Virus record (IMG/VR): IMGVR_UViG_3300037189_000459
Span: 1 to 31,413 of that record
Direction: 5' to 3' (one strand)
Source of the DNA: a virus
DNA: 31,413 bases
Shown here in pieces: positions 1 to 25,447 of the stretch; positions within the stretch are counted from its first letter, which is position 1; the number at the start of each line of letters is the position of its first letter. The translations under genes and the position numbers were made by a program. The notes beneath the pieces are model-generated. The model made no database searches and was not told the DNA's origin. It saw only the letters and a program-made list of their open reading frames with translations.

Positions 1-1793
1 GGATCAACAACTGGATCATTTTTTGGTAGTGCATCTTTTATAGTAGATACAAGTTTTGTAGTAAAGTCACCCATAAAACCGCCACCAGTTTGAGCTGGTG
101 CAGTAGGGTTTGCTTGTGCGTATGCTATGGCTGTGCCTTTACCACCCCAACCTAATTTTTGACGACCATACTTGTCATACAATTTATTTTTTACTTCTCC
201 ACCTTTAGCATACTTATTCATCAACACAGATAAATCTGGCTGATTCTGTTCATAGTAATTGCTGTGTTGAGTAGAAGCTTGCCCACCATCAGAATAATTA
301 ATTATGCCACCCTCAGCTTTACCCTGTGGCTTTGGTGGATAGAAAAAGTCTTTGTAAGTCTTACGATTTTTGTTAGGTGCAAAAGTACCGGGCTGCTTTG
401 GATCAAAAATAGGATTCGCATTCATGTAGCGCATCCATGCCTGACTAGAGCCATCCAAAGTTTTATTGGTAGTAAAGTAGTTACGCAAGAAATTACTTTT
501 CTCTTTTATTGTTTTTGCATAAGCATCCCATGCCAAGCCAATATTTTTGTTAGCCTCATAAGAATTGCTTGGGTTAACAACCGCTTTAAGCAACTGCTTA
601 GCATCAAAGTCAGAAACTGAACCTGTTCCTTCCAATCTTTTTTCAGGTGCAAGCTCAGCAGTAATGTTATCCATTTCTTGAGCAGCAGCTCTGAAGGAAG
701 GTAGTTTTCCAGTAAGAGGGTTGGTTGGGTTTTCTTTATTTAGTTTAAGAAAACGCGCCATCTTTTGCTGAGAGAATTGAGCTTTGTCTGCTGCCTCTTC
801 AACTTTTGCTATTTCAGCTTGCGCACGTTTGCTTGCTTGCAATACTAATTGCTGTTGAGTTTTTTGATCAACATTAGAAAATGGGCTGTCAATCATGACA
901 GGAACACCTAAACGCATACCAGTGTTTTCAGCAGCAGTTAAATTAACTACTGGAGGCGGCTCACCCTTTGGTGCTTTCTGAGGAGGAATGTATGTTTCTT
1001 TTCTTATCTTTGCAGCAGCCGCTTCTCTTACTGCTTGTGGCTGACTAGAATCATTAGCTATGTTTACTAATTCAACAAATTGACCAGAAGGGGTATTAGC
1101 TTTTGTTTTCTTTTCAGTAGTGTATAACTGAATAGCGGCATCCAACTCAGCACGAGCTGGGTCATTCATTGGTAGCGCATCACGCTCTATTTGCATTTGG
1201 CGAAGTCTAGATGCAGATTGACCTCTACCAGTTGCAAGTTTGGTATATACACCAAATTCTTGCTCAGCGTCTTCAGCAGGTTGAGCTGCATTTTGTAATT
1301 GGTATTTTAATTTCAGTGCTTCATAGTCTTGCTTAGCTTTTGTTTGACGATCACTAACACTTGCCATAACTTCAGCAGCATTACCTAATTCTTCACCAAA
1401 TGTACCAAACCTTGTTGGCTTACCAAGAGCAGCAGCAAGTCTAAAATAATCACCACGAGTCCAGCCTTCTTCTGATCTAGCAAGTAAAGCCTCTTGTGCT
1501 TTTTTTAAAATCTCAGCAGTTGTGCTTCTTTCTATTTTCTTTTGCGATAAATAACGCTCGCCAGCTTGACTAGCCTTATTAGCAAATGTTGGATTGCTTA
1601 CATAAGTTTGTTGGCTTATTAAATCAGCATTTGGTTCTTCAGCAACTTCAGCCCTTTGATTAAGGGCTAATAGATCATTATCAGTTGGCATGTCGCTTTG
1701 AAGTAGCTTAGTATTTTCATCCTGTTGAGGAGAAATTAAGCTCTCAAAATCAAACTCTGCCAAGTTATTATTTCTACGAGGTTGATAAGCCAT
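1..1793 (-). CDS. Large internal virion / ejection-type protein, C-terminus cut by window edge
   Basis: An uninterrupted reading frame starts at the ATG at 1793 (MAYQPRRNNNLAEF) and stays open to base 1, giving at least 597 codons with no stop in the window. It is hydrophilic, rich in Ala, Gln, Lys and Glu, and mostly helical in appearance up to about residue 480, with no signal peptide or clear membrane segment. Near residues 493-550 it switches to GG-box peptides (KAEGGIINYSDGGQ and YAKGGEVKNKLYDKYGRQ), which also occur in the proteins at 2815-4350, 13516-15111 and 15128-15427. It follows two other candidate internal proteins after a 19-base gap with a weak AAAGG ribosome site. Position at the end of the virion block, size and composition suggest a large internal/ejected virion protein, but no catalytic motif is visible and no family was recognised with certainty. 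Confidence 0.8.
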   Translation of the reverse strand, partial: MAYQPRRNNNLAEFDFESLISPQQDENTKLLQSDMPTDNDLLALNQRAEVAEEPNADLISQQTYVSNPTFANKASQAGERYLSQKKIERSTTAEILKKAQEALLARSEEGWTRGDYFRLAAALGKPTRFGTFGEELGNAAEVMASVSDRQTKAKQDYEALKLKYQLQNAAQPAEDAEQEFGVYTKLATGRGQSASRLRQMQIERDALPMNDPARAELDAAIQLYTTEKKTKANTPSGQFVELVNIANDSSQPQAVREAAAAKIRKETYIPPQKAPKGEPPPVVNLTAAENTGMRLGVPVMIDSPFSNVDQKTQQQLVLQASKRAQAEIAKVEEAADKAQFSQQKMARFLKLNKENPTNPLTGKLPSFRAAAQEMDNITAELAPEKRLEGTGSVSDFDAKQLLKAVVNPSNSYEANKNIGLAWDAYAKTIKEKSNFLRNYFTTNKTLDGSSQAWMRYMNANPIFDPKQPGTFAPNKNRKTYKDFFYPPKPQGKAEGGIINYSDGGQASTQHSNYYEQNQPDLSVLMNKYAKGGEVKNKLYDKYGRQKLGWGGKGTAIAYAQANPTAPAQTGGGFMGDFTTKLVSTIKDALPKNDPVVD

Positions 1794-1812
1794 TTGTATG
1801 CCTTTAAATTAA

Positions 1813-2811
1813 TTACTTCTTACCAATACCATATATAAGCGCACCAGCCTGAGCAAGCTGTGATAATCCAGATGGGCCTACGGAAGATGCAGGGCCTACT
1901 CCAGTTGCAGTTGATGTAGTAGGGATAGATAAGCCACGAATAGCATTATTTAAGAATGAAATATTCTCTCTTGGATAATCTCTTTGATCAGCAAAATTCT
2001 TGTAAGCCAAATCAAGGTTTCTCTGATTTTGATTTTGCTGTGTAAGACCAACAGCTTCCAATGCAGCAGCCTCATTAAGACCAAGTGACTGCGCCAATGC
2101 ACCAAGAGCGCCAACATTCTGACCAAGTTGAAGTTGTCTAGTAAGGTCTGCTTGAGATATAGCCCCAGTTATTTGACCTAGTTGTCCTTGTCTTGTTAAA
2201 TCAGCTTGGCTTTGAGCCATTGCTTGATTGTAGCCACTAGCTAATGCGCTAGTTTGTTGCGCTAAAGTATCAGCAGATATATCACGCATTGCTTTACCCA
2301 TAGCTGTACCGCTACGGCTACCACCAAACGATCCACCACCAATGAACTGATTCTGAATTGTTGGAATAATGTTTTCAGACAAATTACGCTGAGCCATTTG
2401 ACCGATTCGATTTGTAACCGAATCCATGTATGGGTTCATGTAATTTTGTACATTTGCATAACTAGTTTGAGCTGAATTGTTTAAATAAGGCTGAGCTTTG
2501 CTTAATGCACTAGTATTTCCAAGCTTGTCATATATATTACTTGCTTGATTCATATATGGAAGATAAGAACTAGCAGCTTCAGGTGTTAATGCAAATGCCA
2601 AATTTTGATTATCAGTAAACCCAGCAATACGACTTCCATCGTAAACTTGATATGGTTCTGATGCAATTGCATTAGCCTTACCAATTAAAGCCTGTGTGTA
2701 GTCGTTATACCAAGCAGGTGTTGTGGTAGTTGTAGTTCCATAAGTCTTAACTGATGGAGGTGTAGTACCTCCAAAAAGAAAGTCAGTTACCTTGTCAAGA
2801 ACATTTGCCAT
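1813..2811 (-). CDS. Candidate internal virion (DNA-ejection type) protein
   Basis: This is a 332-residue Ala/Gln/Ser/Asn-rich protein without charged clusters or transmembrane spans. After a Thr-rich N-terminus (about residues 18-32) it has a Gly/Ser stretch near residue 160 (GGGSFGGSRSG). It then has long, low-charge amphipathic segments with repeated QADLTRQ..LGQ units at about residues 200-235. The composition resembles the Gln/Ala-rich proteins that podoviruses store in the head and inject, and similar proteins with the FGGSRSG signature recur in aquatic phages. It sits between two larger candidate ejection proteins, 3 bases after the upstream gene. The ejection role is inferred from composition and context; a tail-fibre-associated role cannot be excluded. 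Confidence 0.75.
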   Translation of the reverse strand: MANVLDKVTDFLFGGTTPPSVKTYGTTTTTTPAWYNDYTQALIGKANAIASEPYQVYDGSRIAGFTDNQNLAFALTPEAASSYLPYMNQASNIYDKLGNTSALSKAQPYLNNSAQTSYANVQNYMNPYMDSVTNRIGQMAQRNLSENIIPTIQNQFIGGGSFGGSRSGTAMGKAMRDISADTLAQQTSALASGYNQAMAQSQADLTRQGQLGQITGAISQADLTRQLQLGQNVGALGALAQSLGLNEAAALEAVGLTQQNQNQRNLDLAYKNFADQRDYPRENISFLNNAIRGLSIPTTSTATGVGPASSVGPSGLSQLAQAGALIYGIGKK

Positions 2812-2814
2812 TTT

Positions 2815-4350
2815 TTAGCCTCTTTGTAAATAAGCTAATGGAGATTTAGCATTAGGAGAAAATTTACCTTTAGCTAAAGATTTTCCTTTTTGCTTTCTTA
2901 AAGATGTTCTCATGCGGTCTAACTGCTTAGCTCCAGCATCCGTTGATCCATTGCCAAGTAATGCAACTGTTTCAGCATCCATCACATACTCGCCATCAGA
3001 AAGAACGGCAGGTATATCATCAGAGCGACCATCAGACAAAGAACTCAAACCACCAGCACGATACCCCTGTGGAGCATTGCCATAGGTGTAATAAGGCGCT
3101 CTAATTTGACCACCAGTTGCTGCTTGTATTGTAGGGTCTGAACTTACAGGAACATATACTGCTGGGTCGTAAAAATTAAACTCACCTGTATTCCCATCAC
3201 GTCTTTCACCATATCTTGTTAAGTCTCCAGTGTATCTATTCCTGTTTCTCTGCATTCGATATTGCTGCATAGGAGTAGTAAATGTAGGACTATTTGCTGG
3301 ATCATTTCTTCTTTGCTCTTCTAAAAGTCTTTCATTTTCTTCTTCTTGTTTTTTCTTAGAATAATAATTTAATCCAAGAGTAGCACCACCAACAATCCAT
3401 GGATTGGTAACATCAACACCAATCATGTCTTTTGAGTATTTACCAACGCTACCTACTGGGTCTTCCCACCAATGATAAGCACCATCTGAAGCTTGTTTTG
3501 CTGCTTCTGTTCCCATATCTACTATTGGTGCTGGATAAGGAACTTGATCAGGTAAAGCACCTAATTCATTTGTGCTTATATCGCTTAAATAATTTTTTGG
3601 TTCTGGGTATATATCTGAAAGTCTTGGTGCTGGTTCTGTATATGCAGCATATTGACCTTTATCAAAACCTAACATGCCATCATCAGTTAAATAAGTTTCA
3701 TTTTTAATAGGCTTATACGGATCAAAATCTATTGGACGATTTGGGTCTAGCAATGAGCTAAATTGATCATTAGCTGGCGCTGCTGACATTAAATCATTAC
3801 CTATGCCATTATCAAGTGATAATTGTTTATTGAAATTATCGCTTGCTGTATCAACTGCTGAAGCTGTTGAAGGTGTTGAGGCATCACTAAATATGTCTGC
3901 AAATGTTGGAGCTTTACTAGTAGCACCTAACGACGAACCAAATGGTTTTGGAGCGCTTGATAAAGCATTTATACCTTCGCTTACTCCAAAATCTAACACG
4001 CCAGCAGTAACACCTGCCCTTAGAGCATCATCAAAATCTCTACCCTGAGCAAGATTAACTGCTGTAGTTGCAAGTCCAGAAGCAATAGCACCCGGGCCAA
4101 CAATGAACGGAATACCAAATGAAGCCGCTGCCGCAGTAATAATAAAACCTAATGGGTCTGCTTTAATTGGTTTAAGAACATAGTCATTTACTAGTTTGCC
4201 AGCATCTTTCCATGTGTCTTCAACAAAATTACCTACATCTTTTACTGACTCTCTTATACCCCTACCTAAATCTTTTGCTGAATCTTCAACCCACTTAGCA
4301 GCTTCTTTAAAAGGTTTGGTTACTTTATTTCTAAATTTTACCCATCCCAT
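2815..4350 (-). CDS. Virion protein with hydrophobic N-terminal segment and conserved LSDGEYV C-terminal box
   Basis: The protein has 511 residues. Residues 1-65 are amphipathic and charged (repeated KDVGNFVEDTWKDAGK-like units). Residues about 67-97 are hydrophobic with many Ala and Gly and could insert in a membrane. The middle is low-complexity and Pro/Asp-rich. The last 100 residues hold a GG-box (YRAGGLSS, about residues 430-437) and then a conserved block: DDIPAVLSDGEYV near 444-456, DAETVALLGNGS near 458-469, and KGKSLAKGKFSPNAKSPLAYL near the end. I know this C-terminal block from many aquatic phage virion proteins, where its function is not established. Membrane-active N-terminus plus position suggest an injected or internal virion protein. 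The start is the ATG 2 bases after the upstream stop. Confidence 0.8.
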   Translation of the reverse strand: MGWVKFRNKVTKPFKEAAKWVEDSAKDLGRGIRESVKDVGNFVEDTWKDAGKLVNDYVLKPIKADPLGFIITAAAASFGIPFIVGPGAIASGLATTAVNLAQGRDFDDALRAGVTAGVLDFGVSEGINALSSAPKPFGSSLGATSKAPTFADIFSDASTPSTASAVDTASDNFNKQLSLDNGIGNDLMSAAPANDQFSSLLDPNRPIDFDPYKPIKNETYLTDDGMLGFDKGQYAAYTEPAPRLSDIYPEPKNYLSDISTNELGALPDQVPYPAPIVDMGTEAAKQASDGAYHWWEDPVGSVGKYSKDMIGVDVTNPWIVGGATLGLNYYSKKKQEEENERLLEEQRRNDPANSPTFTTPMQQYRMQRNRNRYTGDLTRYGERRDGNTGEFNFYDPAVYVPVSSDPTIQAATGGQIRAPYYTYGNAPQGYRAGGLSSLSDGRSDDIPAVLSDGEYVMDAETVALLGNGSTDAGAKQLDRMRTSLRKQKGKSLAKGKFSPNAKSPLAYLQRG

Positions 4351-4351
4351 G

Positions 4352-5005
4352 TTACACCTCGCCTTCAGTTAAATTGTTTTGCAATTGACCTAGTCCACCC
4401 ATAGGTGGTGCAGACATAGAAGGTTGCATTGGTGGCATTTGACCACCACTCATTGGTTGTTGAGGCTGACCAGATTGATTCATCATTCTAGCCATTGCTT
4501 CTTGAGAATTCTTAGGTGGCTCAACATCATAAGGAATTGGCTGCTTTAATTCAGTGCCATTAGGATTACCAATCACAATTCCAATAACATCATCACCATC
4601 GCTGTCTTTATCCATACTGTATTCAATGTCTGGGTTTTTTGGATCGTTTTCAATTATTTCTAAAGCATTAACAAGAGGTTCATTAATGTTCTCTCTTACT
4701 ACTAATAAGAAATAGCCTATTTCATAGGCATCTTTAAAACATTGATAAAGAGCTTGAATAAAATTTTCTTCAGTATCTGCTATTAAAATTCTCATGGAAG
4801 CAATGCCAGCTCTTTTATCATCTCCAAGTAGAACGAATATTGTGTTTCCATATCGAAGGAAATTAGAATTAGGCATCATTCGTTCTTGAACAAATCTAGG
4901 GTATTCAAGCTCTAATGGCAAAACATGATCTTCTTCATTCTCATATGCTTCTTGAATTAGCTCATTTACGCCTAACATTTTTTGTTTGCTGTCAACGATT
5001 GCCAT
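4352..5005 (-). CDS. Conserved phage protein of unknown function, Pro/Met/Gln-rich tail
   Basis: This 217-residue acidic protein has two parts. Residues 1 to about 150 look like a folded alpha/beta domain with many Glu/Asp (for example ENFIQALYQCFKDAYEIGYF). Residues about 160-205 are a disordered Pro, Met, Gln and Gly-rich tail with repeated QPQQPMSGGQMPPM-type sequence. No enzymatic motif or membrane span is visible. It is preceded by an AAAGGAT ribosome site and a 37-base AT-rich gap, and it ends 1 base before the next gene. It lies between the gp10-like tail protein and the candidate ejection proteins, so a virion or virion-assembly role is likely. The precise function is unknown. Confidence 0.75.
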   Translation of the reverse strand: MAIVDSKQKMLGVNELIQEAYENEEDHVLPLELEYPRFVQERMMPNSNFLRYGNTIFVLLGDDKRAGIASMRILIADTEENFIQALYQCFKDAYEIGYFLLVVRENINEPLVNALEIIENDPKNPDIEYSMDKDSDGDDVIGIVIGNPNGTELKQPIPYDVEPPKNSQEAMARMMNQSGQPQQPMSGGQMPPMQPSMSAPPMGGLGQLQNNLTEGEV

Positions 5006-5042
5006 AATTAAATCCTTTTATTTAAAAAAATCGCCAAATAAT

Positions 5043-5270
5043 TTATGCCATTATTTGTGCAAAACGACTAGCCCATTCACGCCAGTCTGAGAAAGAAAGT
5101 GCATCAGGTGGGTTTTTTGAAGTTATGTCAGCAATTGCACATAAAGAGACAGCCCACTCCTGCCACTTTGTCTCATCATCAAGCTGCGGCAAATTGCCAT
5201 AAATATTCAGGTCAAGAACGATCTGATCAGCCCAATCTCTTAATCCTATTATAATAGGTAAAGTTATCAA
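5043..5270 (-). CDS. Small conserved Trp-rich phage protein
   Basis: This 75-residue protein begins at an ATG that overlaps the stop of the gp10-like gene (ATGA). It has a hydrophobic start (MITLPIIIGLRDWADQIV) and two related DW/EW motifs: RDWADQIVLDL near residues 11-21 and SDWREWASRFAQ near residues 61-72, with WQEWAVSLC between them. The repeated Trp pattern suggests a small compact helical protein. Similar small ORFs next to the gp10-like gene occur in related aquatic phages as far as I recall. No function can be assigned; a small tail-assembly or accessory protein is the simplest guess from the tight coupling. Confidence 0.7.
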   Translation of the reverse strand: MITLPIIIGLRDWADQIVLDLNIYGNLPQLDDETKWQEWAVSLCAIADITSKNPPDALSFSDWREWASRFAQIMA

Positions 5271-6898
5271 TTTGTTGCTCCTAACACAGTTCCATCAGCT
5301 TCTTCTATGTGAGCAATTACCTGACCCATTTGGTAGTCGCCATTCAAAGTATTAGACTCAAACCTGAACCGCATCTCTCTTCGTATATCTTTAAAATATA
5401 CAACCTGCTCATAAGGAGTTGTTGGTTCTGCAACTATGGTTTTTACCTCACCAGTTATTTCTTTTGACCTAGCATTTGATCTACCAGTAATTTGCACAGT
5501 CATGTTTCCAGACTGCACAAAATCTGGCTCTAATAATTCACAACGCAATGACTTATCTTGTCCATTTGTTATCAATATACTCATGTCGGCAGTTTCAAAA
5601 TAAGACTGAATAGGTATTACGAAATTAACATCAATCTCATTAACACCAACCTCATGCTCCCAAAGCTTGTAGTTATTTGATTGGAACAAAGTTCTAATAT
5701 CGCCAGAAATGGTCGTTCTTATTAATCCATCCTCAGTTTGACGGATGTCGGCTGCTGGTCTATTAAAGTTATATTCAACACCAGTAAGGAATGGGACTGC
5801 ATAACGAGGGATAAATTCGCCCGCAGAACGCCCCCCATTGGGTAATTCTGTGTCGTACCAAGTATTCTCTTTAACATTGTAAATAATTGCGTGGCTACAC
5901 TCTACAGCATCACCTCTTGGATAGCACCACCAAATTTCACCAAATCTAGGGACTTTGTAAGCAAATACTTTTTGAGCGTATTCCCTGTTTAATCCATCAA
6001 AGAAATAGTTAATATTCAGGACATTTTCTACATCTCTTACAACACCATTAAACATGTAGAAACGGTCAACACCAACCCAGAAATAAACTCCGTCATATTC
6101 AATTATTGACATGGGAGATAAAACTGATGATGCTGAAGTTATGGTGTCAAATTGGAATACCTGCTGTCCACCAACGAATGAAGCTCTGATTACGGCATCA
6201 GTTGACCAATACAATCCTGAAGGAGAATTACCCGGGCCACCTCGAAGGGGCAAACCTCTTACAATTTTTTGAGCAGCAATACGAGCATTACCAGAACCTT
6301 CACCAACTAAGTCAGCAGGGTTTCCGGGGACTGACCAACCTAATGAACCATCAGTTCCAAAAATAGTTAGGTATGGATGTAATACACAAATACCACCACT
6401 AGCAGAAACACCTTCAGGCAATGTAAGCTCAATAAGGCGGTCATTTTCCTGCATGTCTCCATAAAAAACCTGTCCAGATATAGAGTTGTACAAAGAGCTA
6501 AGGTTTGGAGCTGCTTGGGCAATAATCTTATTGCTTGGGACAAGACTGATTGAATCATACAAAACATCAAACTGCCATGAATTATCTAACTGGCTATTTA
6601 ATGTAGCAGGTGTCCTATCATAGACAATACCTGAAAGTCCATCAGCGTCAAGCGTAAATTTTTCTAAAAATGTAGTGCCGCCAGAATGAATGTATGTAGA
6701 TTCATTTTGCGTGAATGACTTCATTCCACGACTAATCTCTGCTAGATAATCGGTTACATTTCTGTACCCATTAATTTTACGAGGCAACCCACGCTGAAAA
6801 CGAACCCATTGTCCATCAACGTAATAGTCACCCTCAAATTTAGTTCCATCGCGTTTAATACCCGCTTTAGAAATTATCCTGACAGGCTTAGCAGCCAT
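5267..6898 (-). CDS. P22 gp10-like DNA stabilisation / tail tube protein
   Basis: This 543-residue beta-rich protein starts MAAKPVRIISKAGIKRDGT and continues YVDGQWVRFQRGLPRKINGY around residues 26-45. That N-terminus is typical of the phage stabilisation (P22 gp10-like) family that plugs the portal after packaging and connects it to the tail hub. The rest has regularly spaced Trp and aromatic residues and short strands, compatible with a propeller-like fold (W.VPG, YFWVGVDRFYMFNG, EIWWCYPRG), as expected for tubular (gp12/gp10-type) podovirus tail proteins. Length fits P22 gp10 (about 470 aa) with moderate expansion. The start overlaps the upstream fibre gene stop by one base. The family call is from motif recall, not a search. 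Confidence 0.75.
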   Translation of the reverse strand: MAAKPVRIISKAGIKRDGTKFEGDYYVDGQWVRFQRGLPRKINGYRNVTDYLAEISRGMKSFTQNESTYIHSGGTTFLEKFTLDADGLSGIVYDRTPATLNSQLDNSWQFDVLYDSISLVPSNKIIAQAAPNLSSLYNSISGQVFYGDMQENDRLIELTLPEGVSASGGICVLHPYLTIFGTDGSLGWSVPGNPADLVGEGSGNARIAAQKIVRGLPLRGGPGNSPSGLYWSTDAVIRASFVGGQQVFQFDTITSASSVLSPMSIIEYDGVYFWVGVDRFYMFNGVVRDVENVLNINYFFDGLNREYAQKVFAYKVPRFGEIWWCYPRGDAVECSHAIIYNVKENTWYDTELPNGGRSAGEFIPRYAVPFLTGVEYNFNRPAADIRQTEDGLIRTTISGDIRTLFQSNNYKLWEHEVGVNEIDVNFVIPIQSYFETADMSILITNGQDKSLRCELLEPDFVQSGNMTVQITGRSNARSKEITGEVKTIVAEPTTPYEQVVYFKDIRREMRFRFESNTLNGDYQMGQVIAHIEEADGTVLGATN

Positions 6899-8025: not shown

Positions 8026-8027
8026 TA

Positions 8028-8681: not shown

Positions 8682-9124
8682 TACTTCTCCTTGCTAAAAG
8701 GTCTTGTACCTTTTTTATCAATAATGAGAGCCATTTTTCTAGGCTTCGCATCTTTAGTGTTTGGGATGCTCACATGAGTCCATGAGTCAAATTCTCTTAT
8801 CACCTGATCGTATGGCAAACCTGCTTTTATGATTGCAGATACAACCTCATTGGGAGTCATACCTTTTACTTTAAGGTCTGCTGCAACCCCAAGGCAATGT
8901 TGGCTGGTAGGTTTTCCTCCGACTAGGCGGTTGGCCTCTACACTGCGAAATGCAGAATTTATGCGTAATGGCATGCCAACAACAGTTCGCACTTCTTCCA
9001 AAAATAAAGCTAGGCGACGCAAGTTCATCAACACATCATTATCAGGTGTATTGTCAATACCATGACGCTCCGCTGTTTCACTAGCGGTCATCTCTTCTAG
9101 CGTGAAGTTTGGAGATAAGTTCAT
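8681..9124 (-). CDS. Peptidase M15-type endolysin (cell-wall endopeptidase)
   Basis: The protein has 147 residues. The zinc-peptidase M15 signature is complete: SQHCLGVAADL at residues 74-84 supplies His76 and Asp83, Glu111 lies in VIREFDSW, and WTHVSI supplies His117. The preceding R-x-NSAFRS segment (residues 54-61) is also typical of M15_3 phage peptidases. Such enzymes cut peptide cross-links of peptidoglycan and serve as endolysin. The start (ATG overlapping the holin stop as ATGA) and the adjacent holin-like gene make a standard lysis pair. There is no signal peptide, so export depends on the holin. The C-terminal 25 residues are basic. Confidence 0.85.
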   Translation of the reverse strand: MNLSPNFTLEEMTASETAERHGIDNTPDNDVLMNLRRLALFLEEVRTVVGMPLRINSAFRSVEANRLVGGKPTSQHCLGVAADLKVKGMTPNEVVSAIIKAGLPYDQVIREFDSWTHVSIPNTKDAKPRKMALIIDKKGTRPFSKEK

Positions 9125-9621
9125 TTTTTTAACGCCAATGCATCTGATTTATCTTTGCTGCCTTGTGAGCTACCAAAATAAAAGCTTATGACTTGAGTTG
9201 CAGCACTTGTAAGAAATCCCAAAGCATAGATAACGATATTTTCCTGACTGTCTGGAATATTCACAAACATCAAAATACCAACCAATAGAAATGCCACCAT
9301 CACAATACCCAATGCTAAGATAGGCATAACTAACTTCTCAAGCCAATGCACATTAGGATTTGTTGCTATCGCTATACGTGCAGCTCTTGCATCGCCACGA
9401 TCTTTCACTTCTTGCTCAAACATGAACTCTTCATGTTTCATAGCAGCTTCTTTAAGTGATGCTATCTTTTCATCCGATAGCTTCCCATCGGAATCAGGAG
9501 TTAAAGTTATGCCTAGCTTTTCTTCAACCGCAGAAACACCTTTGTCTAATACAGAATCAACGACCTTCTGCATGCCAGCTCCTGCAAGCTGGGATAGGAT
9601 TGGTACTAGTAGTGGTAACAT
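9121..9621 (-). CDS. Holin-like membrane protein (GTA-holin type)
   Basis: This 166-residue protein has a long helical, charged N-terminal part and two clear hydrophobic spans at about residues 97-121 (KLVMPILALGIVMVAFLLVG) and 129-151 (IVIYALGFLTSAATQVISFY). It ends FYFGSSQGSKDKSD. The FGSS.GS.xK ending is characteristic of the gene-transfer-agent-type holin family (GTA_holin_3TM). The N-terminal segment at residues 1-15 is also hydrophobic and may be a third span. Holins open the inner membrane so the endolysin encoded next can reach the wall. The junctions with both neighbours overlap (TAATG upstream, ATGA downstream), supporting tight co-translation. Confidence 0.75.
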   Translation of the reverse strand: MLPLLVPILSQLAGAGMQKVVDSVLDKGVSAVEEKLGITLTPDSDGKLSDEKIASLKEAAMKHEEFMFEQEVKDRGDARAARIAIATNPNVHWLEKLVMPILALGIVMVAFLLVGILMFVNIPDSQENIVIYALGFLTSAATQVISFYFGSSQGSKDKSDALALKK

Positions 9622-10241
9622 TAATTTGCCCCTTGATCAAACATCCAGTGAATAAACCACGCAAACCCTGCAATAATTGCAGTGATTACAAACCCACCTA
9701 TGCAGTTATATATAATATTTAACGTGCGTTGTAGTTTGCGCTTCTTACGCATTTTTTCTGCTGCTATTGCTAATCTTGCTTCTGTTGCTGCTCGTCTAGC
9801 GTCTTCTGCTTTAGCTTCACGCTCACGACGTAACTTACTTAATCTTTGCCAGAACTCATCCCACATCCCACTCTCATCAAAGTGGTAAATCATTACATGC
9901 TTGATCTGAGCGTAATACTGTGTAATTTCCCTATCTGCCGCCATCATGTCCATCACAAACTCAGCATCACTGATTGGGTCATCTACTGGTTGCCCATTTG
10001 CTATTGCTTCATCTTGCTTTTTCTTTGCATCTTCTAATTGCGATCTATTCTCTTCATATCTACTTGCTGCTGAGAAAAACTTCTTCACAGGCGAAAGTGA
10101 CTGACCTAACTTTTTTCCTGAGTCAACGCACTCTTGGATACTATCAACAGCTTCTCGAGCCTCATCGGCTGCTGATTTAACTGCGTTAACTACGAGCCTT
10201 ACGCCCTGTATAGCTAACCCTATTGTCATCGGGTCGATCAT
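9621..10241 (-). CDS. C-terminally anchored helical membrane protein in lysis cassette
   Basis: This 206-residue protein is largely helical and charged over residues 20-165, with dense Ala/Arg/Glu/Lys heptads near 138-172. It then has one hydrophobic span at about residues 175-200 (LNIIYNCIGGFVITAIIAGF) and a short tail. A C-terminal membrane anchor with a cytoplasmic coiled coil would face inward. The start MIDPMTIGLAIQGVRLVVNAV resembles a family common in aquatic phages next to lysis or virion genes. It precedes the holin with a TAATG overlap. Its role is uncertain: it could be a lysis regulator or an inner-membrane partner. It does not look like an inner-membrane spanin, which carries its anchor at the N-terminus. 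Confidence 0.65.
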   Translation of the reverse strand: MIDPMTIGLAIQGVRLVVNAVKSAADEAREAVDSIQECVDSGKKLGQSLSPVKKFFSAASRYEENRSQLEDAKKKQDEAIANGQPVDDPISDAEFVMDMMAADREITQYYAQIKHVMIYHFDESGMWDEFWQRLSKLRREREAKAEDARRAATEARLAIAAEKMRKKRKLQRTLNIIYNCIGGFVITAIIAGFAWFIHWMFDQGAN

Positions 10242-10250
10242 AATTTACTT

Positions 10251-10472
10251 TCATTTGTCAGCTTTGTTATCTAGCTTGTCAAAAATTTGTTTAAGCATAC
10301 CTTTTACATCATCTATATCACGACGATAATCATCTTTCTGAACATAGGTGCGAGGAAGCTCTGCAACTTTATCTTCAAGACGAATTATTGATCTAGATAT
10401 GTTATTAAGTATCCAGCCACCAAAACATCCAGCAACTGCAAATACAACATTAATTAAAAATTGTGATTCCAT
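10251..10472 (-). CDS. Small N-terminally anchored protein with short coiled coil
   Basis: This 73-residue protein has one hydrophobic segment at residues 5-22 (FLINVVFAVAGCFGGWIL) followed by a charged helical tail (RLEDKVAELPRTYVQKDDYR and on to the end) that probably oligomerises. The layout is that of haemolysin XhlA-like or small holin-accessory proteins of phages: an N-terminal anchor plus a soluble coiled tail. It follows the fibre gene by 2 bases and heads the lysis cassette. The start at ATG 10472 puts the hydrophobic span directly at the N-terminus. Function as holin partner, antiholin or spanin component cannot be separated from sequence alone. Confidence 0.6.
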   Translation of the reverse strand: MESQFLINVVFAVAGCFGGWILNNISRSIIRLEDKVAELPRTYVQKDDYRRDIDDVKGMLKQIFDKLDNKADK

Positions 10473-10474
10473 AA

Positions 10475-12235
10475 TTAAGCAATCCTGTAATAAACATAGG
10501 CACTAGTTCCAGTTCTACGAAACCTAAATAATGCTGAACTTGATGCAGCAATAGAGGTTTGACCAGAGCCAAGTGTAGTGCCAGAACCAGCAGTAATTGT
10601 TACAGCTACTGTAGTTGAGTTATTTATAATAGCTAGATCAAAAGAAGCATTTGTAATGCTGTTAGTAGCCAATATGGGAAACTGTGAATCAATTGAAGCC
10701 CCACTTGGCATTGTCAATGCATATGTACTAGCACCAGTACACGTAAAAATTCCAGTAGCTAGTTGAGCAGCAGTTACGGTTGCGGCAGCACTAAATGCGG
10801 TTGCCGCAGCCTGTCTTTGGAAATTAACGCCATAAGCACTAAAAGATTCAGTTGTGTAAAATATTTCTTTAGTATTTGGATCGCACTGTACTGATCCACC
10901 AGACAAAGATGCTGTGTTAGTAGAATTTCTTGGTGCATTAATAAACACACCTGCATTTAATGGTGTAAATGCAGTTGACTGTGTACTTAATACAATCATC
11001 GTGCCATTAGAGCCATTAATTTGATTGCCAATCAGTATTGATCGAGTAACTGCTGCATTATTTGATCTACCTATAGATATAGTATCAGAGGCAGAAGCTG
11101 AGGTATTAGCACCAAGAGCTATAGCGTTAAGTGCTAGAGCGCTTGCACTTGTTCCAATCGCAACAGCAGAATTATTTGCGCCTGTTCCATTGCCAATTGC
11201 AATTGCACCCGGATTTGAAGTTAAAATTGTTGCGCTTGCTCCAATAGCAATACCATTATTTGATGTTGCACCAACATTTGCTGACGCTCCAATAGCTATA
11301 CCAGATGGGGCAGAGTTTGATGCAGCATTACCAATTGATAATCCACTTGTTCCAGTAGCTTGCACGTCTGCGTTATAACCTAGTGCAGCAGCCCCAGTAG
11401 CTAAAACATTTGATCCTGATCCAAAAGCAGCGCCAGTTCCAACGGATGAGGATGAAGAGCCTATTGCTGTGCCACTTGCACCTGTAACAGATGAACCTCC
11501 TCCTACTGCTGTTCCAGATGCGCCACCAGAACCAATTGTTGACCCAACACCTACAGCGACTGCTGAAGTAGCAGCAGCATTAATTGCCGCATTATTCCCT
11601 AATGAGGTATTAGCTGAAGCACCACTACCAGTAGCACCAAAAACCAAACCAAGAGCAGTAGGGGTAGCAGCTACCGCAACCGCATAGTTTGGAATATTTA
11701 AAGTATTAGATGAGAATGTAGCAGCACCAGAAGTACCAGTAGTCGTCAATGAAATGACACCCTGATACTGAGGAATGTTAAATACATTAGATGAAAATGT
11801 TGCTGCACCAGAAGTGTTAAGAGTAGTCAAACTAACTGGGGATTGAAAATCAGAGTTAGCTACAGCAGCAAAAAGACCGCCACCATTCCCTTTAATTATG
11901 CCTGTAACGCTAGTTGTAAGAGTAATTGCAGGTGTTGTTGTGGCAGTTGCTACCGTTCCAGCAAATCCATTTGCAGAAGCAACGCTTAAACTTGTTACAG
12001 TGCCATTTCCATAAATTGGAATATTTAAAGCATTGCTAACTAAAGTTGCCGCACCACTTGTTCCAGTAGTAGTTAAAGTAATCTCACCAGAAGAAAGAAG
12101 AACAACATTGTTACTTGCATTAAGCGTATATAGTTTTCTGTCCGTTACATTAACCGCTAATTCACCACGAACTAACTGACCTGATGACGGAACTGCACCA
12201 GCAGAAGAACTATTTTTTGTAATAATTACTGGCAT
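10475..12235 (-). CDS. Tail fibre with YadA-like head repeats
   Basis: The protein has 586 residues. The N-terminal module (LVRGELAVNVTDRKLYT, residues 21-37) is a common phage fibre start. Three LTTTGTSGAATFSSN-type repeats (about 53-76, 135-158 and 161-184) flank a SVASANGFAGTVATATTTPA module (84-103) that also occurs in the 749-aa fibre. Residues about 224-403 are about a dozen 14-residue repeats of the SGIAIGASA / AVAIGTSA type, as in the left-handed beta-roll head of trimeric autotransporter adhesins. Residues about 470-586 form a distal Ser/Thr-rich domain, probably the receptor-binding tip. A strong GGAGG ribosome site precedes the ATG. The likely product is a trimeric fibre. Confidence 0.8.
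   Translation of the reverse strand: MPVIITKNSSSAGAVPSSGQLVRGELAVNVTDRKLYTLNASNNVVLLSSGEITLTTTGTSGAATLVSNALNIPIYGNGTVTSLSVASANGFAGTVATATTTPAITLTTSVTGIIKGNGGGLFAAVANSDFQSPVSLTTLNTSGAATFSSNVFNIPQYQGVISLTTTGTSGAATFSSNTLNIPNYAVAVAATPTALGLVFGATGSGASANTSLGNNAAINAAATSAVAVGVGSTIGSGGASGTAVGGGSSVTGASGTAIGSSSSSVGTGAAFGSGSNVLATGAAALGYNADVQATGTSGLSIGNAASNSAPSGIAIGASANVGATSNNGIAIGASATILTSNPGAIAIGNGTGANNSAVAIGTSASALALNAIALGANTSASASDTISIGRSNNAAVTRSILIGNQINGSNGTMIVLSTQSTAFTPLNAGVFINAPRNSTNTASLSGGSVQCDPNTKEIFYTTESFSAYGVNFQRQAAATAFSAAATVTAAQLATGIFTCTGASTYALTMPSGASIDSQFPILATNSITNASFDLAIINNSTTVAVTITAGSGTTLGSGQTSIAASSSALFRFRRTGTSAYVYYRIA
11027..11566 (-). repeat. YadA-like short repeats in 586-aa fibre gene
   Basis: About a dozen degenerate units of roughly 14 codons encode (A/S)xAIGxxAxA-like segments (SGIAIGASAN, NGIAIGASAT, GAIAIGNGTG, SAVAIGTSAS). 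This is the spacing of the trimeric left-handed beta-roll head of YadA/Hia-type adhesins. Confidence 0.75.
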
Positions 12236-12463
12236 TTAAACCTCCAATGGTCTATCTGGTCGAACAAACGGCAATGTAATATTTTCCGTTTGGCGAGCTG
12301 GTAAGCGGTATGGATCAAGATCATCCAAGTCATCACGACAAACCCGAAGTCCGGGGCTGTTAGGGTCTGAATATAAATCAGTAATTGACATCTTTCTACT
12401 GCATCGGTCGCAAAGACCAATGCCATAAGATGACTTGCCTGTTGGATCGTACCAAATGCTCAT
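12236..12463 (-). CDS. Small conserved CxxC protein, possible zinc ribbon
   Basis: This 75-residue protein has CDRC at residues 18-21 and a further single Cys at residue 42 (LRVCRDDLD), followed by DPYRLPARQTENITLPF. A CxxC plus a third Cys could bind a metal, with an Asp or His completing the site, but the second pair is not a clean CxxC as in many zinc ribbons. I recall similar small proteins with the YRLP.R.TENITL ending beside gp4-like genes in related phages. It overlaps the upstream gp4-like stop as ATGA and is followed immediately by the fibre gene. It may be a small structural or assembly protein; the function is unknown. Confidence 0.7.
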   Translation of the reverse strand: MSIWYDPTGKSSYGIGLCDRCSRKMSITDLYSDPNSPGLRVCRDDLDDLDPYRLPARQTENITLPFVRPDRPLEV

Positions 12464-13446
12464 CTTGTATACACCGCAATGTTAGGAGTGAAATAAATTG
12501 GAGAGTTATCACGCTCTTCCATCTCTGCTTCATTAAGCGCCCTTATAGCCTTCTGATCAATAATAGGGATCATTGCTGGGTCAACTTGTGGAAGCTCTTC
12601 TGCAAATCTTGCTGCTAACTGATACACAATAGCTTCATACCAACGCTGTGGGACTTCAATTTCTTGCGTTAATGTACCTACATCCATGATGTAACGCTTC
12701 ACATAGGTAGTGACTTGAGCTATTGCAGTTGATACGCTTGGGACAGGCCATATGTACATGATTGGCTCATCAAGAGTTCTGTCTAACCAAAACTGTAAAG
12801 GTTTACCTTGAAATGCTTTGTTTGGTAGGTTTGCATAGCTGTCTCGATTCAAACGAGCCATTGGTATTTCATTTGGTGTGTTACCAAATACAAATTGAGC
12901 AGGAGAAAAACCTACCCCATAACCAAAAACTCTGATGTATGAAGTGGTTATAGGTACTGGAACGTCTTTCCATGTCCACTTATTAGCTAAACCAGCAGCA
13001 TCCATTACGAGCAGAGTCGTCCAAGTAGTTCCGTTTGTAGAAGTTTGAACTAAATAATTAGTGCTTACACTAGAACCATAAAGCAGACCTACTGTAGATA
13101 TTGAGGTTGGGCTAGTAAAATTTACTGTATATGAATTACTTGTGATAGTAGTGACACCAGTTTGAGCTTCTACTGTGCGGTAATTTGTATTAAGTAAATC
13201 AACAATGCCATTGCCAACTGGGACTTCTGCATTAGCTGGTTGGAGTGGAAGGATTAGCTTTTCAATGCACCATAGCTGAAGCCCTCTGTTTGCCAGAGCG
13301 GATAGCAATAGGTACAAAGTTTCTTGAGCGGTAACCATTTGCTCGCCACCAACCCCTTCAGGCGGCAAACGGCATTTGCGAAACGCATGATCAATAATTT
13401 TGCGAGTATTAAATACAGTTTGAGAAACTGTTCCAGAAACCGCCAC
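12460..13446 (-). CDS. P22 gp4-like head-tail connector with discoidin-like insertion
   Basis: The protein has 328 residues and starts at a GTG (13446) with AAGGAG 7 bases upstream. Residues 1-87 and about 186-328 resemble the helical connector that docks under the portal (P22 gp4/T7 gp11 class): an N-terminal RKIIDHAFRKCRLPPEG helix, then YIMDVGTLTQEIEVPQRWYE and RALNEAEMEERDNSP near the end. Residues about 88-185 form a beta-rich insertion (VQTSTNGTTWTTL, WTWKDVPVPITTSYIRVFGY) with the look of a discoidin/F5-8 type C carbohydrate-binding module. The family's core members are about 170-200 residues, so this protein is long by roughly the size of that insertion. It is the first gene after a possible promoter and hairpin. 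Confidence 0.75.
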   Translation of the reverse strand: MAVSGTVSQTVFNTRKIIDHAFRKCRLPPEGVGGEQMVTAQETLYLLLSALANRGLQLWCIEKLILPLQPANAEVPVGNGIVDLLNTNYRTVEAQTGVTTITSNSYTVNFTSPTSISTVGLLYGSSVSTNYLVQTSTNGTTWTTLLVMDAAGLANKWTWKDVPVPITTSYIRVFGYGVGFSPAQFVFGNTPNEIPMARLNRDSYANLPNKAFQGKPLQFWLDRTLDEPIMYIWPVPSVSTAIAQVTTYVKRYIMDVGTLTQEIEVPQRWYEAIVYQLAARFAEELPQVDPAMIPIIDQKAIRALNEAEMEERDNSPIYFTPNIAVYTR

Positions 13447-13470
13447 TTTTATTCTCCTTCAAGTCGCAGC

Positions 13471-13485
13471 TCGCTGAAACAGCGA
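13471..13485 (-). promoter_or_regulatory. Compact hairpin at 5' end of gp4-like transcript
   Basis: TCGCTG and CAGCGA pair perfectly (6 base pairs) around a 3-base loop. It lies 7 bases from the possible transcription start and 12 bases before the AAGGAG ribosome site. A hairpin at the very 5' end often protects RNA from decay, or it can modulate ribosome loading. It lacks a T-run, so it is not a terminator. Confidence 0.4.
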
Positions 13486-13491
13486 TCTCAA

Positions 13492-13505
13492 GAGACTAGA
13501 TTATA
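13492..13505 (-). promoter_or_regulatory. Possible -10 box (TATAAT) before gp4-like gene
   Basis: On the minus strand, a perfect TATAAT lies at 13500-13505 in a 69-base gap, one of the longest intergenic gaps of the window. It is about 54 bases before the GTG start. No convincing -35 box is visible at a 16-18 base spacing, so sigma-70 use is uncertain; an activator or phage-specific factor could compensate. Transcription would begin near 13493. Confidence 0.3.
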
Positions 13506-13515
13506 AATTAACTTA

Positions 13516-15111
13516 TTAGCATTTAGGGGTGCGATTAAAGGTTGGAACACCTTTTTTCATAGCAGACCCACCTTTGCGCATACCACCCATGGATGACATT
13601 GGAGACATAGCTTCAATTTCTTCATGCTTAATCATCTTTGCAGGAGCGCCAGCCTTTTTAAGCAAAGATATTTCTTTCTTTATAACAGCTTCAGGCTCTC
13701 GCTTCATGCCAACTAGCTTTACACCTTTAACTGGAGCTTTGCCGCCTTTTTTAAGCTCTAAAACAGTACCTTTACCACCTTTATGCTCTTGCTGATCATG
13801 CTGCTTCATAGCTTTTTTGATCATTGCCTTGTCTTGAGCCTTGTCTTTAGCTGAGCTTTCCATAGATTTTGCATTTTTTGATGCTTTAGGATTATCTTTT
13901 GAAACACTACCACCTTCTTTTAACCCAGTATTCGAAGGAAGTGATCTTCCAATCAAACCACGAACTTTTGAAAATTTTGGGGAAATACTTTGTAAAGCTC
14001 TAGTTACATTACTAGAATTTTGAGCTGGAGCTGGCTGCGGATTGGTAGCAAGCGCCCTTCCAATAAAACCACGATTTTGTGAAAAACTCGGAGAAAATCT
14101 TTGCAATGCATTAGTTATATTACCCATATTTTGGGATTGAGCTGGCTGTGGATTGGAATCCCTAAGCGCAGAAGAAATCAAACCAATTTTTGGTTGAATT
14201 TTTTGCATTGCACTACTTAAATTATCTTTAACTAAGGATGGTTGTGTATCTGTTGGTTGGCTATCTTGGCTGCCACGCATATTTTCAACCATTTTTAATG
14301 CTTTAGACAAAATACCACCTGACGCATAACCCTGAACTTCTCCACCTTCTTTCATTCTTACAGGGCTTGGCAGTAAATTTGCCTTACCTTGACCTTCTTC
14401 ATATCGGCTTCTAGATTCAGCAGCTTCTCTTTTTGCGTCTTCAGCTAACTTTAATTTTGTAGCTTTTGCCTTGGCATTCCTTCGTTGAATTGGTGCATCA
14501 TCAAAGTCATACATACCACCTGCCGCATAACCTTTTACCTCACCGCCTTCTTGCATCTTTTTAGCGGAGTTTTTGAAATCTTGTGCAGAAGGAGCGCCTT
14601 TAGAGCCAGCTTTTCTCATTTTCTCACCAGAGCCTTCTTTAATACGCTCTCTTTTTGCATGGATGTTGTCCCACAATCCAACCTTGCCGCCTTTTTGTCT
14701 TGCTATAGGCGCACTGCTACGATCCTGTATAGCATCCATGCTACGTTTTAATGCTGAATATGGGTCTTTACTAGGAGGTATTCTATTCGCTATAGCTTCT
14801 GCTTTATGTCTAGCATCAGTAGCTTTCCTAATCTCCATGTTCCTATCAGTCGCAGCTTTTATCGCAACTGGATCAATTAGAAGCGGGCTTCCTTTTCTAT
14901 TAGGATTTGCATTTGCTTTATTAATAACCGCTTGATTCTCTTTTTGGCGCTGCATAGCGGGGTCAAGAGGAGCAGGAGTTGGCATTGGCTTTTTAGCAGC
15001 CATAGGAGCGGCGACTGGTTCAGTAGCACCACCAAATGCATAGCCTTTTACGGCTGGACGAGGGTTTGGCTTGTTAAAAGTAAACTCACCATACTTAATA
15101 TTTTTGCCCAT
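13516..15111 (-). CDS. Basic low-complexity virion protein with repeated GG-boxes
   Basis: This 531-residue protein is strongly basic, with long Lys/Ala/Pro disordered stretches. It carries GG-boxes at VKGYAFGG (21-28), KGGKVGLW (140-147), EGGEVKGYAAGG (188-199), EGGEVQGYASGG (255-266), KEGGSVS (398-404) and KKGGKAPVKG (454-463). Residues 146-174 contain DNIHAKRERIKEGSGEKMRK, a peptide I recall from several aquatic phage proteins. Three degenerate 37-residue repeats occupy about 297-394. No enzyme motif, coiled coil or membrane span is visible. High basicity suggests nucleic-acid or capsid-interior contact. AAGGAA lies upstream of the ATG. It is probably a structural or ejected protein; the function is unknown. 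Confidence 0.7.
   Translation of the reverse strand: MGKNIKYGEFTFNKPNPRPAVKGYAFGGATEPVAAPMAAKKPMPTPAPLDPAMQRQKENQAVINKANANPNRKGSPLLIDPVAIKAATDRNMEIRKATDARHKAEAIANRIPPSKDPYSALKRSMDAIQDRSSAPIARQKGGKVGLWDNIHAKRERIKEGSGEKMRKAGSKGAPSAQDFKNSAKKMQEGGEVKGYAAGGMYDFDDAPIQRRNAKAKATKLKLAEDAKREAAESRSRYEEGQGKANLLPSPVRMKEGGEVQGYASGGILSKALKMVENMRGSQDSQPTDTQPSLVKDNLSSAMQKIQPKIGLISSALRDSNPQPAQSQNMGNITNALQRFSPSFSQNRGFIGRALATNPQPAPAQNSSNVTRALQSISPKFSKVRGLIGRSLPSNTGLKEGGSVSKDNPKASKNAKSMESSAKDKAQDKAMIKKAMKQHDQQEHKGGKGTVLELKKGGKAPVKGVKLVGMKREPEAVIKKEISLLKKAGAPAKMIKHEEIEAMSPMSSMGGMRKGGSAMKKGVPTFNRTPKC
13930..14223 (-). repeat. Three degenerate ~37-residue repeats in basic GG-box protein
   Basis: Units at residues about 297-330, 331-367 and 368-394 share N(L/I/V)(S/T)xA(M/L)Qx(I/F)(Q/S)P followed by (L/F)I(S/G)(S/R)(A/S)L and a NPQPAxxQN linker. 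Within each unit the pattern is amphipathic-helical. The linker is Pro/Gln-rich. Confidence 0.75.
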
Positions 15112-15127
15112 GATTATTTCCTTTAAT

Positions 15128-15427
15128 TTAACAATCCCACTTGCGTAAGGCTTTATTGATTCTTGAATTAGGGTCTTTTGCAGTCTCAGCAGAAGTTAGC
15201 TTTGCTTTCATGCCACCCATACGAGCGCAGAAGGAACTTCTACGAGAAGCTTTAGCAGGACTCTTTGCAGCAGCCTCTTTAGAGACTGGTGGCTTTAAAT
15301 TACTGCCAGTTGCTTTATTATAAGCATCACGACCTGCTTGGCTTAAACCACCCTCTGGATTTTTATGCTTAACAGTCAAATTAACCTGACCGCCTTTTGC
15401 AAAATGCCAACCTTTAATAATCGCCAT
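15128..15427 (-). CDS. Small basic protein with GG-box and SFCARM...NSRINKALRKW motif
   Basis: I choose the ATG at 15427 (99 aa). An alternative TTG start lies at 15439, but GGAG sits 6 bases before the ATG, and this places the start just after the upstream stop. The protein starts MAIIKGWHFAKGGQVNLTVK, with a GG-box at about residues 9-13 and a second PEGGLSQAGRDAY near 24-36. It ends RRSSFCARMGGMKAKL followed by DPNSRINKALRKWDC. I recall this C-terminal pattern in small basic phage proteins, including cyanophage members of DUF6321-like families. It is probably a virion-associated or nucleic-acid-binding protein; the function is unknown. Confidence 0.7.
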   Translation of the reverse strand: MAIIKGWHFAKGGQVNLTVKHKNPEGGLSQAGRDAYNKATGSNLKPPVSKEAAAKSPAKASRRSSFCARMGGMKAKLTSAETAKDPNSRINKALRKWDC

Positions 15428-25027: not shown

Positions 25028-25447
25028 TTAGATAAATGCTCGCATCTTTGTTGGGTCGCCTGTTACACGACCTAAGATGTTTAAATCATCAAACATAACG
25101 AATTCAATCTCTTCGTCATCAATTTTTACTGTCCATCTGTCGCCACCGTACTTTGGAGTGCGCACAAACTCACCTACATCACACCAAGAACCTTCAGGCC
25201 ACATCTCCATAGTGTTTCTATTGCGATATGCAAGCGATCCAACCGCAACAACACGAGCTACTTGGGTGTTACTAGCCTCAGTCTTACGTGCCTCTTCAGG
25301 AATATACAGACCGCTCTTGGTTTTGGACTTTGCTCTACGAATTTGAACTATAACTCGTGATCCAAATGGGATAATTCCACAGTCTACTTGCGGGAAAGCG
25401 TCTTCAATTGACTCAAATCCCATTTCTAATGGTGTTTCTAGTAGCAT
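25028..25447 (-). CDS. GroES-like co-chaperonin
   Basis: The protein has 139 residues. Residues 27-70 match the Cpn10 core: PFGSRVIVQIRRAKSKTKSG, LYIPEEARKTEASN (mobile-loop region) and ARVVAVG. Later residues (VGEFVRTPKYGGDRWTVKI and ILGRV near 124-128) match the second half of the beta barrel. The N-terminal 25 residues are an extra extension compared with GroES (about 97 aa). By analogy with T4 gp31, it probably caps the host GroEL to fold phage proteins such as the capsid protein. It sits in the head operon between portal and scaffold genes. GGAG lies before the ATG at 25447. Confidence 0.85.
   Translation of the reverse strand: MLLETPLEMGFESIEDAFPQVDCGIIPFGSRVIVQIRRAKSKTKSGLYIPEEARKTEASNTQVARVVAVGSLAYRNRNTMEMWPEGSWCDVGEFVRTPKYGGDRWTVKIDDEEIEFVMFDDLNILGRVTGDPTKMRAFI

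Follow-up and report, generated by a model that had tools for sequence, protein, structure and literature searches.

A short directional diglycine peptide recurs in unrelated late proteins of an environmental phage group and may mark them for the head interior

The stretch analysed here (the window) comprises positions 1 to 31,413 of the IMG/VR virus record IMGVR_UViG_3300037189_000459 and encodes terminase, portal, GroES-like, capsid and SU10-type adaptor genes together with several late proteins that are unrelated to one another and share a short diglycine peptide, hereafter the GG-box. The same 31,413 bases are contained in record G001 (53,264 bases), and a relative, G002 (53,409 bases), carries a terminal repeat, which suggests that this genome is complete. 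Thirty-six genes were called in the window; calls were made with our own codon-score script or as longest open frames, and some of them are wrong. The box-bearing phage group appears to be podovirus-like.

The initial annotation of the window had described a (K/E)GG-x-(V/I) peptide in four otherwise dissimilar virion-block proteins, namely a partial large protein and proteins of 511, 531 and 99 amino acids (aa). The recurrence in different late proteins is real and wider than first claimed, as it extends to relatives of the window. Strict [KE]GG.[VI] occurs at seven sites in the 36 genes: the 597-aa partial protein has two, the 531-aa protein four and the 99-aa protein one, and the remaining 33 genes have no such site. 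Composition-preserving shuffles of these three carriers give an expectation of 0.02, 0.06 and 0.01 sites, respectively (about 0.1 together). The 511-aa protein contains YRAGG and ATGG, and no [KE]GG.[VI]. As a core, (K/E)GG had to be replaced, since relatives share aromatic-A-x-GG instead; the best form is directional, [Y/F/M]-A-x-G-G-x-[V/A], and 122 distinct boxes from 38 clusters, for the selection of which [Y/F], A and GG were required, yield the cluster-weighted consensus G-[Y/F]-A-[K/E/R/D]-G-G-x-[V/A]-[K/R]. The form [YF]A.GG counted below was chosen once relatives had been seen.

The copy numbers also changed. The six copies ascribed to the 531-aa protein resolve into four strict boxes and three YAxGG boxes, with seven [KED]GG altogether, and of the two sites named in the 99-aa protein FAKGGQV precedes the domain, while PEGGLSQAG lies inside DUF6321 (residues 21-97) and was counted as domain sequence. 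The partial large protein, for which no Pfam match was obtained, is the N-terminal part of a giant whose G002 homologue has 1922 aa; a second giant, of 2204-2209 aa, follows it there, and both have more boxes. The remainder of the partial protein would, in our reading, lie at the other end of G001. The window and G001 break off at the same spot (window 1-212 versus G002 32829-38597), where a proline-threonine repeat visible in G002 may have interrupted the assembly. The G002 counterpart carries an extra box 227 residues ahead of the YAKGGEV box, the window protein having one. Coordinates are given in Table 1.

Table 1. Box-bearing proteins, boxes and modules in the window
Feature	Position in window	Strand	Evidence
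N-terminal 597 aa of giant late protein	3..1793	-	1922-aa homologue in G002, E 1e-302; record ends within gene
Box pair KAEGGIINYSDGGQ, residues 492-505 of 597-aa protein	279..320	-	Motif count; counterpart in G002
Box YAKGGEV, residues 528-534 of 597-aa protein	192..212	-	Kept in G002
511-aa tape-measure-like / ejection-type protein	2815..4350	-	C-terminal similarity to tape-measure PHROGs and to proteins annotated as tape measures in cultured phages
Box YRAGG, residues 430-434 of 511-aa protein	3049..3063	-	GG433-434 invariant in alignment of 19 family members
Conserved C-terminal module ..GRSDDIPAVLSDGEYVMDAETVA.., residues 441-509 of 511-aa protein, after box	2824..3030	-	Family alignment
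531-aa basic protein, several boxes	13516..15111	-	Motif count
Box YAFGG, residues 24-28 of 531-aa protein	15028..15042	-	Motif count
KGGKV, residues 140-144 of 531-aa protein, adjoining LW module	14680..14694	-	Motif count
LW module GLWDNIHAKRERI..GSGEKMRKAGSKGAPS, residues 143-185 of 531-aa protein	14557..14685	-	phrog_16028, E 4.7e-20, 72.6 bits
Tandem box MQEGGEVKGYAAGG, residues 186-199 of 531-aa protein	14515..14556	-	Motif count, tandem test
Tandem box MKEGGEVQGYASGG, residues 253-266 of 531-aa protein	14314..14355	-	Motif count, tandem test
Box EGGSV, residues 399-403 of 531-aa protein	13903..13917	-	Motif count
Module AQDKAMIKKAMKQHDQQEHKGGKGTVLELKKGG, about residues 425-458 of 531-aa protein	13738..13839	-	Also in relatives' box-rich late proteins, by eye
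99-aa DUF6321 protein	15128..15427	-	PF19846, E 5.7e-25, 88.2 bits versus cut-off 28.5
Box FAKGGQV, residues 9-15 of 99-aa protein, before domain	15383..15403	-	Motif count
DUF6321 domain, residues 21-97; includes GGLSQAG, not scored as box	15137..15367	-	Pfam match

Beyond G001 and G002, the sample contains 24 further genomes picked by record length and not by the box, 14 via a scan with the capsid and 10 via a scan with the 511-aa protein, the latter being biased toward genomes that have a 511 relative; G022 and G029, also on the candidate list, lie outside it. A protein was classed as late if gene order places it in the stretch that starts with TerL and ends with the 332-family gene, and as giant if encoded by one of up to four genes of at least 400 aa on the same strand just after the 332-family gene. 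Enrichment of a box profile in virion genes, the check that the initial annotation had proposed, was found with a profile trained on G001 and G002 alone (37 sites) and run on the other 24 genomes: at score 9 it gave 80 late, 18 giant and 5 other hits, against one each in reversed sequences. At score 8 the corresponding hits were 100 late, 22 giant and 9 other (reversed 7, 3 and 4), and at score 7 they were 134, 28 and 25 (reversed 13, 4 and 12). Across all 26 genomes, forward [YF]A.GG, its mirror and the shuffled expectation numbered 104, 16 and 16.6 in late proteins, 26, 0 and 1.8 in giants, and 10, 8 and 4.2 in others, and no genome is without [YF]A.GG in its late or giant proteins. Low-complexity drift was rejected as an origin of the boxes, as the imbalance between forward and mirror [YF]A.GG is confined to late and giant proteins, the profile agrees, and A-x-GG is kept in homologues. 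Counts of [YF]..GG.[VIAL] include 26 hits to YQAGGVL in the capsid protein itself and 24 mirror hits in the portal; these were excluded from the consensus, position, genome-table, conservation, tandem, HEXXH and profile analyses and do not affect the [YF]A.GG counts.

The box is concentrated in certain protein classes. [YF]A.GG was found in none of 178 proteins from seven classes, namely TerL (0/25), portal (0/25), scaffold-like (0/26), capsid (0/26), adaptor-like (0/26), 543-family (0/25) and ejection-332 (0/25); here scaffold-like (306 aa) is a label from position with no family match, adaptor-like (328 aa) reflects an SU10_adaptor match under the cut-off, and the 543 label denotes a virion structural protein according to phrog_3287. 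When the first position is widened to L and M, the motif appears in one 543-family protein. Carriers are 21 of 25 511-family proteins, seven of eight 531-family proteins, half of the 12 DUF6321 proteins and 18 of 46 giants, to which G001 contributes three entries, two of them pieces of one protein. Overall, 67 of 774 late proteins carry [YF]A.GG (15 the mirror motif), compared with 10 of 674 others (mirror 8), and three of those ten (one in G024, two in G026) sit shortly beyond the 332-family gene and probably belong to the late genes too.

Among 16 box-bearing or giant proteins scanned against Pfam, PcfJ was detected in five of the six encoded near TerL, which makes it the commonest domain of box carriers there, and DUF6496 in three. 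ART-PolyVal or LPD23 exceeded the cut-off in two of six giants scanned: the 2204-2209-aa giant of G002 (ART-PolyVal, E 3e-15, with PcfJ below cut-off) and the 1791-aa giant of G005 (LPD23, E 5e-12, with ART-PolyVal below cut-off). ART-PolyVal and LPD are domains of polyvalent proteins, which PMC5512222 describes as a class proposed to be packaged and injected. The C-terminal module of the 511-aa protein matches phrog_3547 (E 2e-4) and phrog_13338 (unknown function, E 3.8e-5), and the protein matches the annotated tape-measure protein of Caulobacter phage GB2A with E 2e-19 and, weakly, those of Arthrobacter phages (E 0.01). A tape-measure match over most of its length was not obtained, the similarity covering about residues 410-490, besides weak long-gapped matches.

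Conservation was examined in 346 box-by-homologue cases from 73 proteins in 30 clusters, with pairs of 25-85% identity, alignable flanks and at most six homologues per protein. Identity is 0.70 at the A and 0.82 and 0.79 at the two G, compared with just 0.26-0.41 at positions -8 to -4; flanks further out reach 0.53, a value based on aligned positions only, while the near positions score gaps as changes. Both G are retained in 0.71 of boxes versus 0.41 of GG pairs outside boxes. At the aromatic residue, identity falls to 0.45, and in the 511 family its place is mostly taken by M, Y or L. In the alignment of the 511 family, which includes GB2A, G433 and G434 never vary at a mean column identity of 25%. 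The codons of the boxes vary within G001 and within G002, therefore selection acts on the peptide, and DNA repeats were rejected as the origin of the boxes on the same grounds. Furthermore, the spacing of consecutive boxes (pattern [YFM][AKSHQN].GG) is 8 or 9 residues for 27 of 124 pairs, whereas random placement gives 2.1 such pairs on average and at most seven in 500 trials. These tandem pairs come from 11 sequence clusters, some of which are probably distantly related, for example those near TerL. The 531-aa protein of the window has such a pair in MKEGGEVQGYASGG, an 803-aa protein in FSQGGQVRGYAEGG and a PcfJ protein in YALGGLVQKYAAGG. The profile test, the conservation in homologues and the concentration in particular classes support the earlier proposal of a shared short linear signal in virion-block proteins.

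The modules found in the carriers also occur in other phages, and there some of them are headed by a different peptide. The LW module (phrog_16028, 43 residues) was identified in 57 records and DUF6321 in 303; the query for the former was the whole 531-aa protein, and among the matches listed all fall inside the module. In relatives of the window (loci L005, L028, L067 and L074) the modules of the 531-aa protein are, by eye, split into separate late genes, and in Roseobacter phage CRP-804 the LW module forms its own 50-aa gene, which sits between those for scaffold and capsid and precedes an HNH gene. A scan of genome contigs returned 89 pattern matches to the LW module and only two loci with a relative; the module looks phage-borne. 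At 31 loci with window-type virion genes, [YF][AK].GG outnumbers its mirror by 91 to 13 and [YF]A.GG by 30 to 13, compared with 12 to 9 and 4 to 6, respectively, at 46 loci without such genes, so that the box was rejected as a general hallmark of phages with LW or DUF6321.

The capsid-targeting sequence (CTS) of T4 is N-terminal. At the 46 loci sharing a module without window-type virion genes, a CTS-like leader, M..(F/Y)..(F/Y/W)(I/L/V/M).E within about ten N-terminal residues (a pattern written after seeing the leaders here and modelled on that of T4), is present at 44 of 582 open reading frame (ORF) starts versus 3 of 3488 internal methionines, and 29 of the 46 loci have it in at least one ORF. 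Of their LW and DUF6321 proteins, 14 of 52 have a CTS-like start and 4 of 52 a GG-box; in the window-type lineage the CTS-like start is absent from these proteins (0/25 at the 31 loci, 0/14 in the 26 genomes) and the GG-box is found in 16 of 25 and 10 of 14. No CTS-like leader was detected at ATG-type ORF starts of the two window-type sets (0/289 and 0/1111), and allowing any methionine in the first 60 residues gave 0 of 353 and 1 of 1494 proteins. The gp21-type prohead protease (PF03420) was found in none of 20 window-type genomes; among 19 comparison records, it occurs together with a gp23 capsid in all five longer than 100 kb, and neither occurs in the 14 shorter fragments. The GG-box and the CTS-like leader are thus hardly found in the same lineage. 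We keep the GG-box apart from the CTS family because neither the N-terminal leader nor the matching protease was found with it. At loci L013, L020, L025, L047, L049, L063, L071 and others, varied proteins lie under a CTS-like start (by eye nucleotidyltransferase-like, HAD-like and DUF6321), and proteins with such a start in partly T4-like phages likely constitute a set of injected proteins. PMC3012670 describes the internal proteins of T4 as a highly diverse defence set in which only the targeting sequence is conserved.

With slightly less than even confidence, we propose that the GG-box is a selected docking tag that sorts unrelated internal proteins into the head for injection, CTS-like in its working and unrelated to the CTS in origin. 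In T4-like phages, relatives of the cargo modules bear a leader of the T4 type in place of the box, and this comparison favours the packaging role listed in the initial annotation, on the presumption that the carriers lie in the virion. Under this proposal, boxes would stand singly or in tandem (8-9 residues apart) in fast-changing linkers of proteins destined for the head interior and subsequent ejection. Among the passengers would be the tape-measure-like 511 protein, small basic cargo proteins and the giants, of which some have domains of the polyvalent type. Within the procapsid or internal core, a component particular to the lineage (the scaffold-like protein, the portal or a core based on the 511 protein) would bind the box and so recruit these unrelated passengers. 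We infer the location inside the virion, the binding of a partner and the candidates for that partner from the comparisons above. The 511 protein, which has an invariant GG in the alignment and a counterpart in a cultured relative, may be the original user of the box, with the passengers copying its signal.

Several observations weigh against a docking tag. The loose form [YF]..GG is far less one-sided than [YF]A.GG, with 254 forward, 210 mirror and 152.8 shuffled occurrences in late proteins of the 26 genomes (giants 61, 13 and 20.2; others 43, 44 and 45.8). Twenty-eight of 46 giants lack the strict [YF]A.GG, as do all 25 members of the 332 family, a 'DNA ejection protein' that is likely internal. 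Pfam revealed no polyvalent domain in four of the six giants scanned, and PcfJ is not named (0 occurrences) in PMC5512222. The position of the box is variable: of 97 boxes in proteins of at least 300 aa, 13 lie in the last 60 residues, where 7.3 are expected, and eight in the first 60. A strong terminal position was rejected: these larger proteins show a mild C-terminal excess, and those below 300 aa one toward the N terminus (24 of 33 boxes versus 11.1 expected). The AlphaFold model of the 511-aa protein is poor (mean predicted local distance difference test, pLDDT, 45.9).

The cultured phages likewise speak against it. The capsid of GB2A is 82% identical over the matched 88%, and the annotated late genes of this phage (47,991 bases read) contain no [YF]A.GG, the only variant being the M-type NMARGG in its 511 homologue; therefore the capsid alone does not demand the box, and the box as a requirement of this capsid type is weakened. 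Roseobacter phage CRP-901 (49,914 bases) lacks [YF]A.GG and has three [YF]..GG.[VIAL] sites, two in a 759-aa protein and one in a portal-like protein, while CRP-804 (37,835 bases) lacks both forms, Pelagibacter phage HTVC033P (35,999 bases) has matches in glycine runs only, and none of the 14 late proteins of N4 that were scanned has a box. HTVC023P has, besides glycine runs, a few box-like sites, for instance FNRGGIA in an open frame of 872 residues and FKRGGDV in one of its small late proteins; in Alcaligenes phage QDWS535, a single giant has two such sites and two more lie elsewhere. The RW/GB2A group includes a tape-measure protein according to the accessible part of PMC11053796; virion proteomics for box-bearing phages was not found in the literature, including that part.

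The most durable alternative, which we nevertheless consider unlikely, is that the box binds nothing and serves as a structural element, either a hinge or turn linking modules or a weak self-association sticker, kept for unfolding and passage through portal and tail. This would fit the placement of boxes in fast-changing stretches, the finding that none of 24 hand-placed [YF]A.GG boxes from eight proteins falls inside a Pfam match (about two expected), the location of the 511 box in a low-confidence part of the poor AlphaFold model, and the C-terminal module after that box, which is common to tape-measure proteins. However, a plain linker needs no one-way aromatic-A-x-GG, which exceeds its mirror by 104 to 16 in late proteins and 26 to 0 in giants, nor does it call for the 8-9 residue repeat preferred in different proteins.

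Processing, also raised in the initial annotation, is weaker than packaging. It is improbable that the box is the site of a GG-specific protease that, ahead of ejection or following it, cuts the linkers of giants and the tail end of the 511 protein. With its GG and a conserved residue two positions earlier, the box resembles double-glycine cleavage sites, and large virion proteins are processed elsewhere, namely DdrB of P1 (PMC5512222) and head proteins of SPN3US (PMC10052503). Against this, the T4-type prohead protease is absent from the 20 genomes mentioned above (other protease types were not searched for across genomes), HEXXH occurs in late proteins of just 4 of 26 genomes, by which zincin autoprocessing was rejected as a general rule, and the sole peptidase match in 20 window proteins scanned against Pfam is M15, lysis-type by our own reading. 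The stacking of boxes in tandem, with three within about 21 residues of one small protein of G011, would likewise be odd for cleavage.

We see only a slim chance that the boxes, together with surrounding basic residues, bind and help condense packaged DNA. The 531-aa protein is 12.8% lysine and position +4 is enriched in K, R and H; however, acidic residues are frequent directly before GG (E 0.14, D 0.10, compared with K 0.21 and R 0.10), and N4 shows no box in the late proteins scanned. Slimmer still is the prospect that the boxes are functionless hitch-hikers, linker sequence spread by recombination during module swaps among late genes, for although the carriers look mosaic and G002 has an extra box and 227 residues missing from the 597-aa protein of the window, the codons of boxes differ inside one genome, the peptide is kept in diverged homologues, and its conservation exceeds that of neighbouring linker residues.

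Other genes of the window were annotated in passing. A GroES-like co-chaperonin is encoded at 25028-25447, close to the portal and scaffold-like genes, and is annotated in CRP-901, HTVC023P and QDWS535 too. The adaptor-like protein (12460-13446) has a discoidin-type (F5/8 C) match at residues 104-173 with E 4.2e-6, barely below the Pfam cut-off. A 325-aa late protein (17567-18544) is 32% glycine and perhaps tail-associated. NCBIfam returned no family at E 0.001 among seven proteins scanned.

To our knowledge, the choice of head-carried proteins by tailed phages outside the T4 group is poorly known. No described function for such a motif was found in the literature searched, which was covered as titles and abstract starts with subscription papers mostly outside, and BLAST of a made-up box-repeat peptide against a phage collection gave no match. 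It is conceivable, though we would sooner doubt than assert it, that the GG-box represents a second, independent capsid cargo tag, an internal and repeatable diglycine motif with which a large lineage of phages would fill its heads with many unrelated anti-host proteins, T4-like phages using an N-terminal leader on the same modules. If so, sequence alone would predict which late proteins of this environmental phage group are injected, and the box would offer a handle for loading chosen proteins into a non-T4 capsid. The comparison of the same cargo under different tags makes the question directly testable.

Four known systems bear comparison with the GG-box. Polyvalent proteins (Iyer et al., 2017) resemble the giant carriers in that two of six match ART-PolyVal or LPD23 and the giants end the late block, but no shared short tag is described in the accessible text of PMC5512222, and the box is also present in small and PcfJ proteins. 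The tape-measure C-terminal module (phrog_3547, phrog_13338) is matched by the DGEYV-type module after the box of the 511-aa protein; however, the match covers only about 80 residues, and proteins that lack this module use the box as well. The 99-aa protein belongs to DUF6321 (PF19846), and residues 143-185 of the 531-aa protein represent the LW module (phrog_16028), yet in other lineages both modules mostly lack the box. The CTS of T4 is similar as a short peptide shared by otherwise unrelated anti-defence head proteins (PMC3012670), and CTS-like starts are found on LW and DUF6321 proteins of other phages. In contrast, the GG-box is internal, often repeated and of another sequence, and the phages that carry it lack the gp21-type protease which T4-like records encode.

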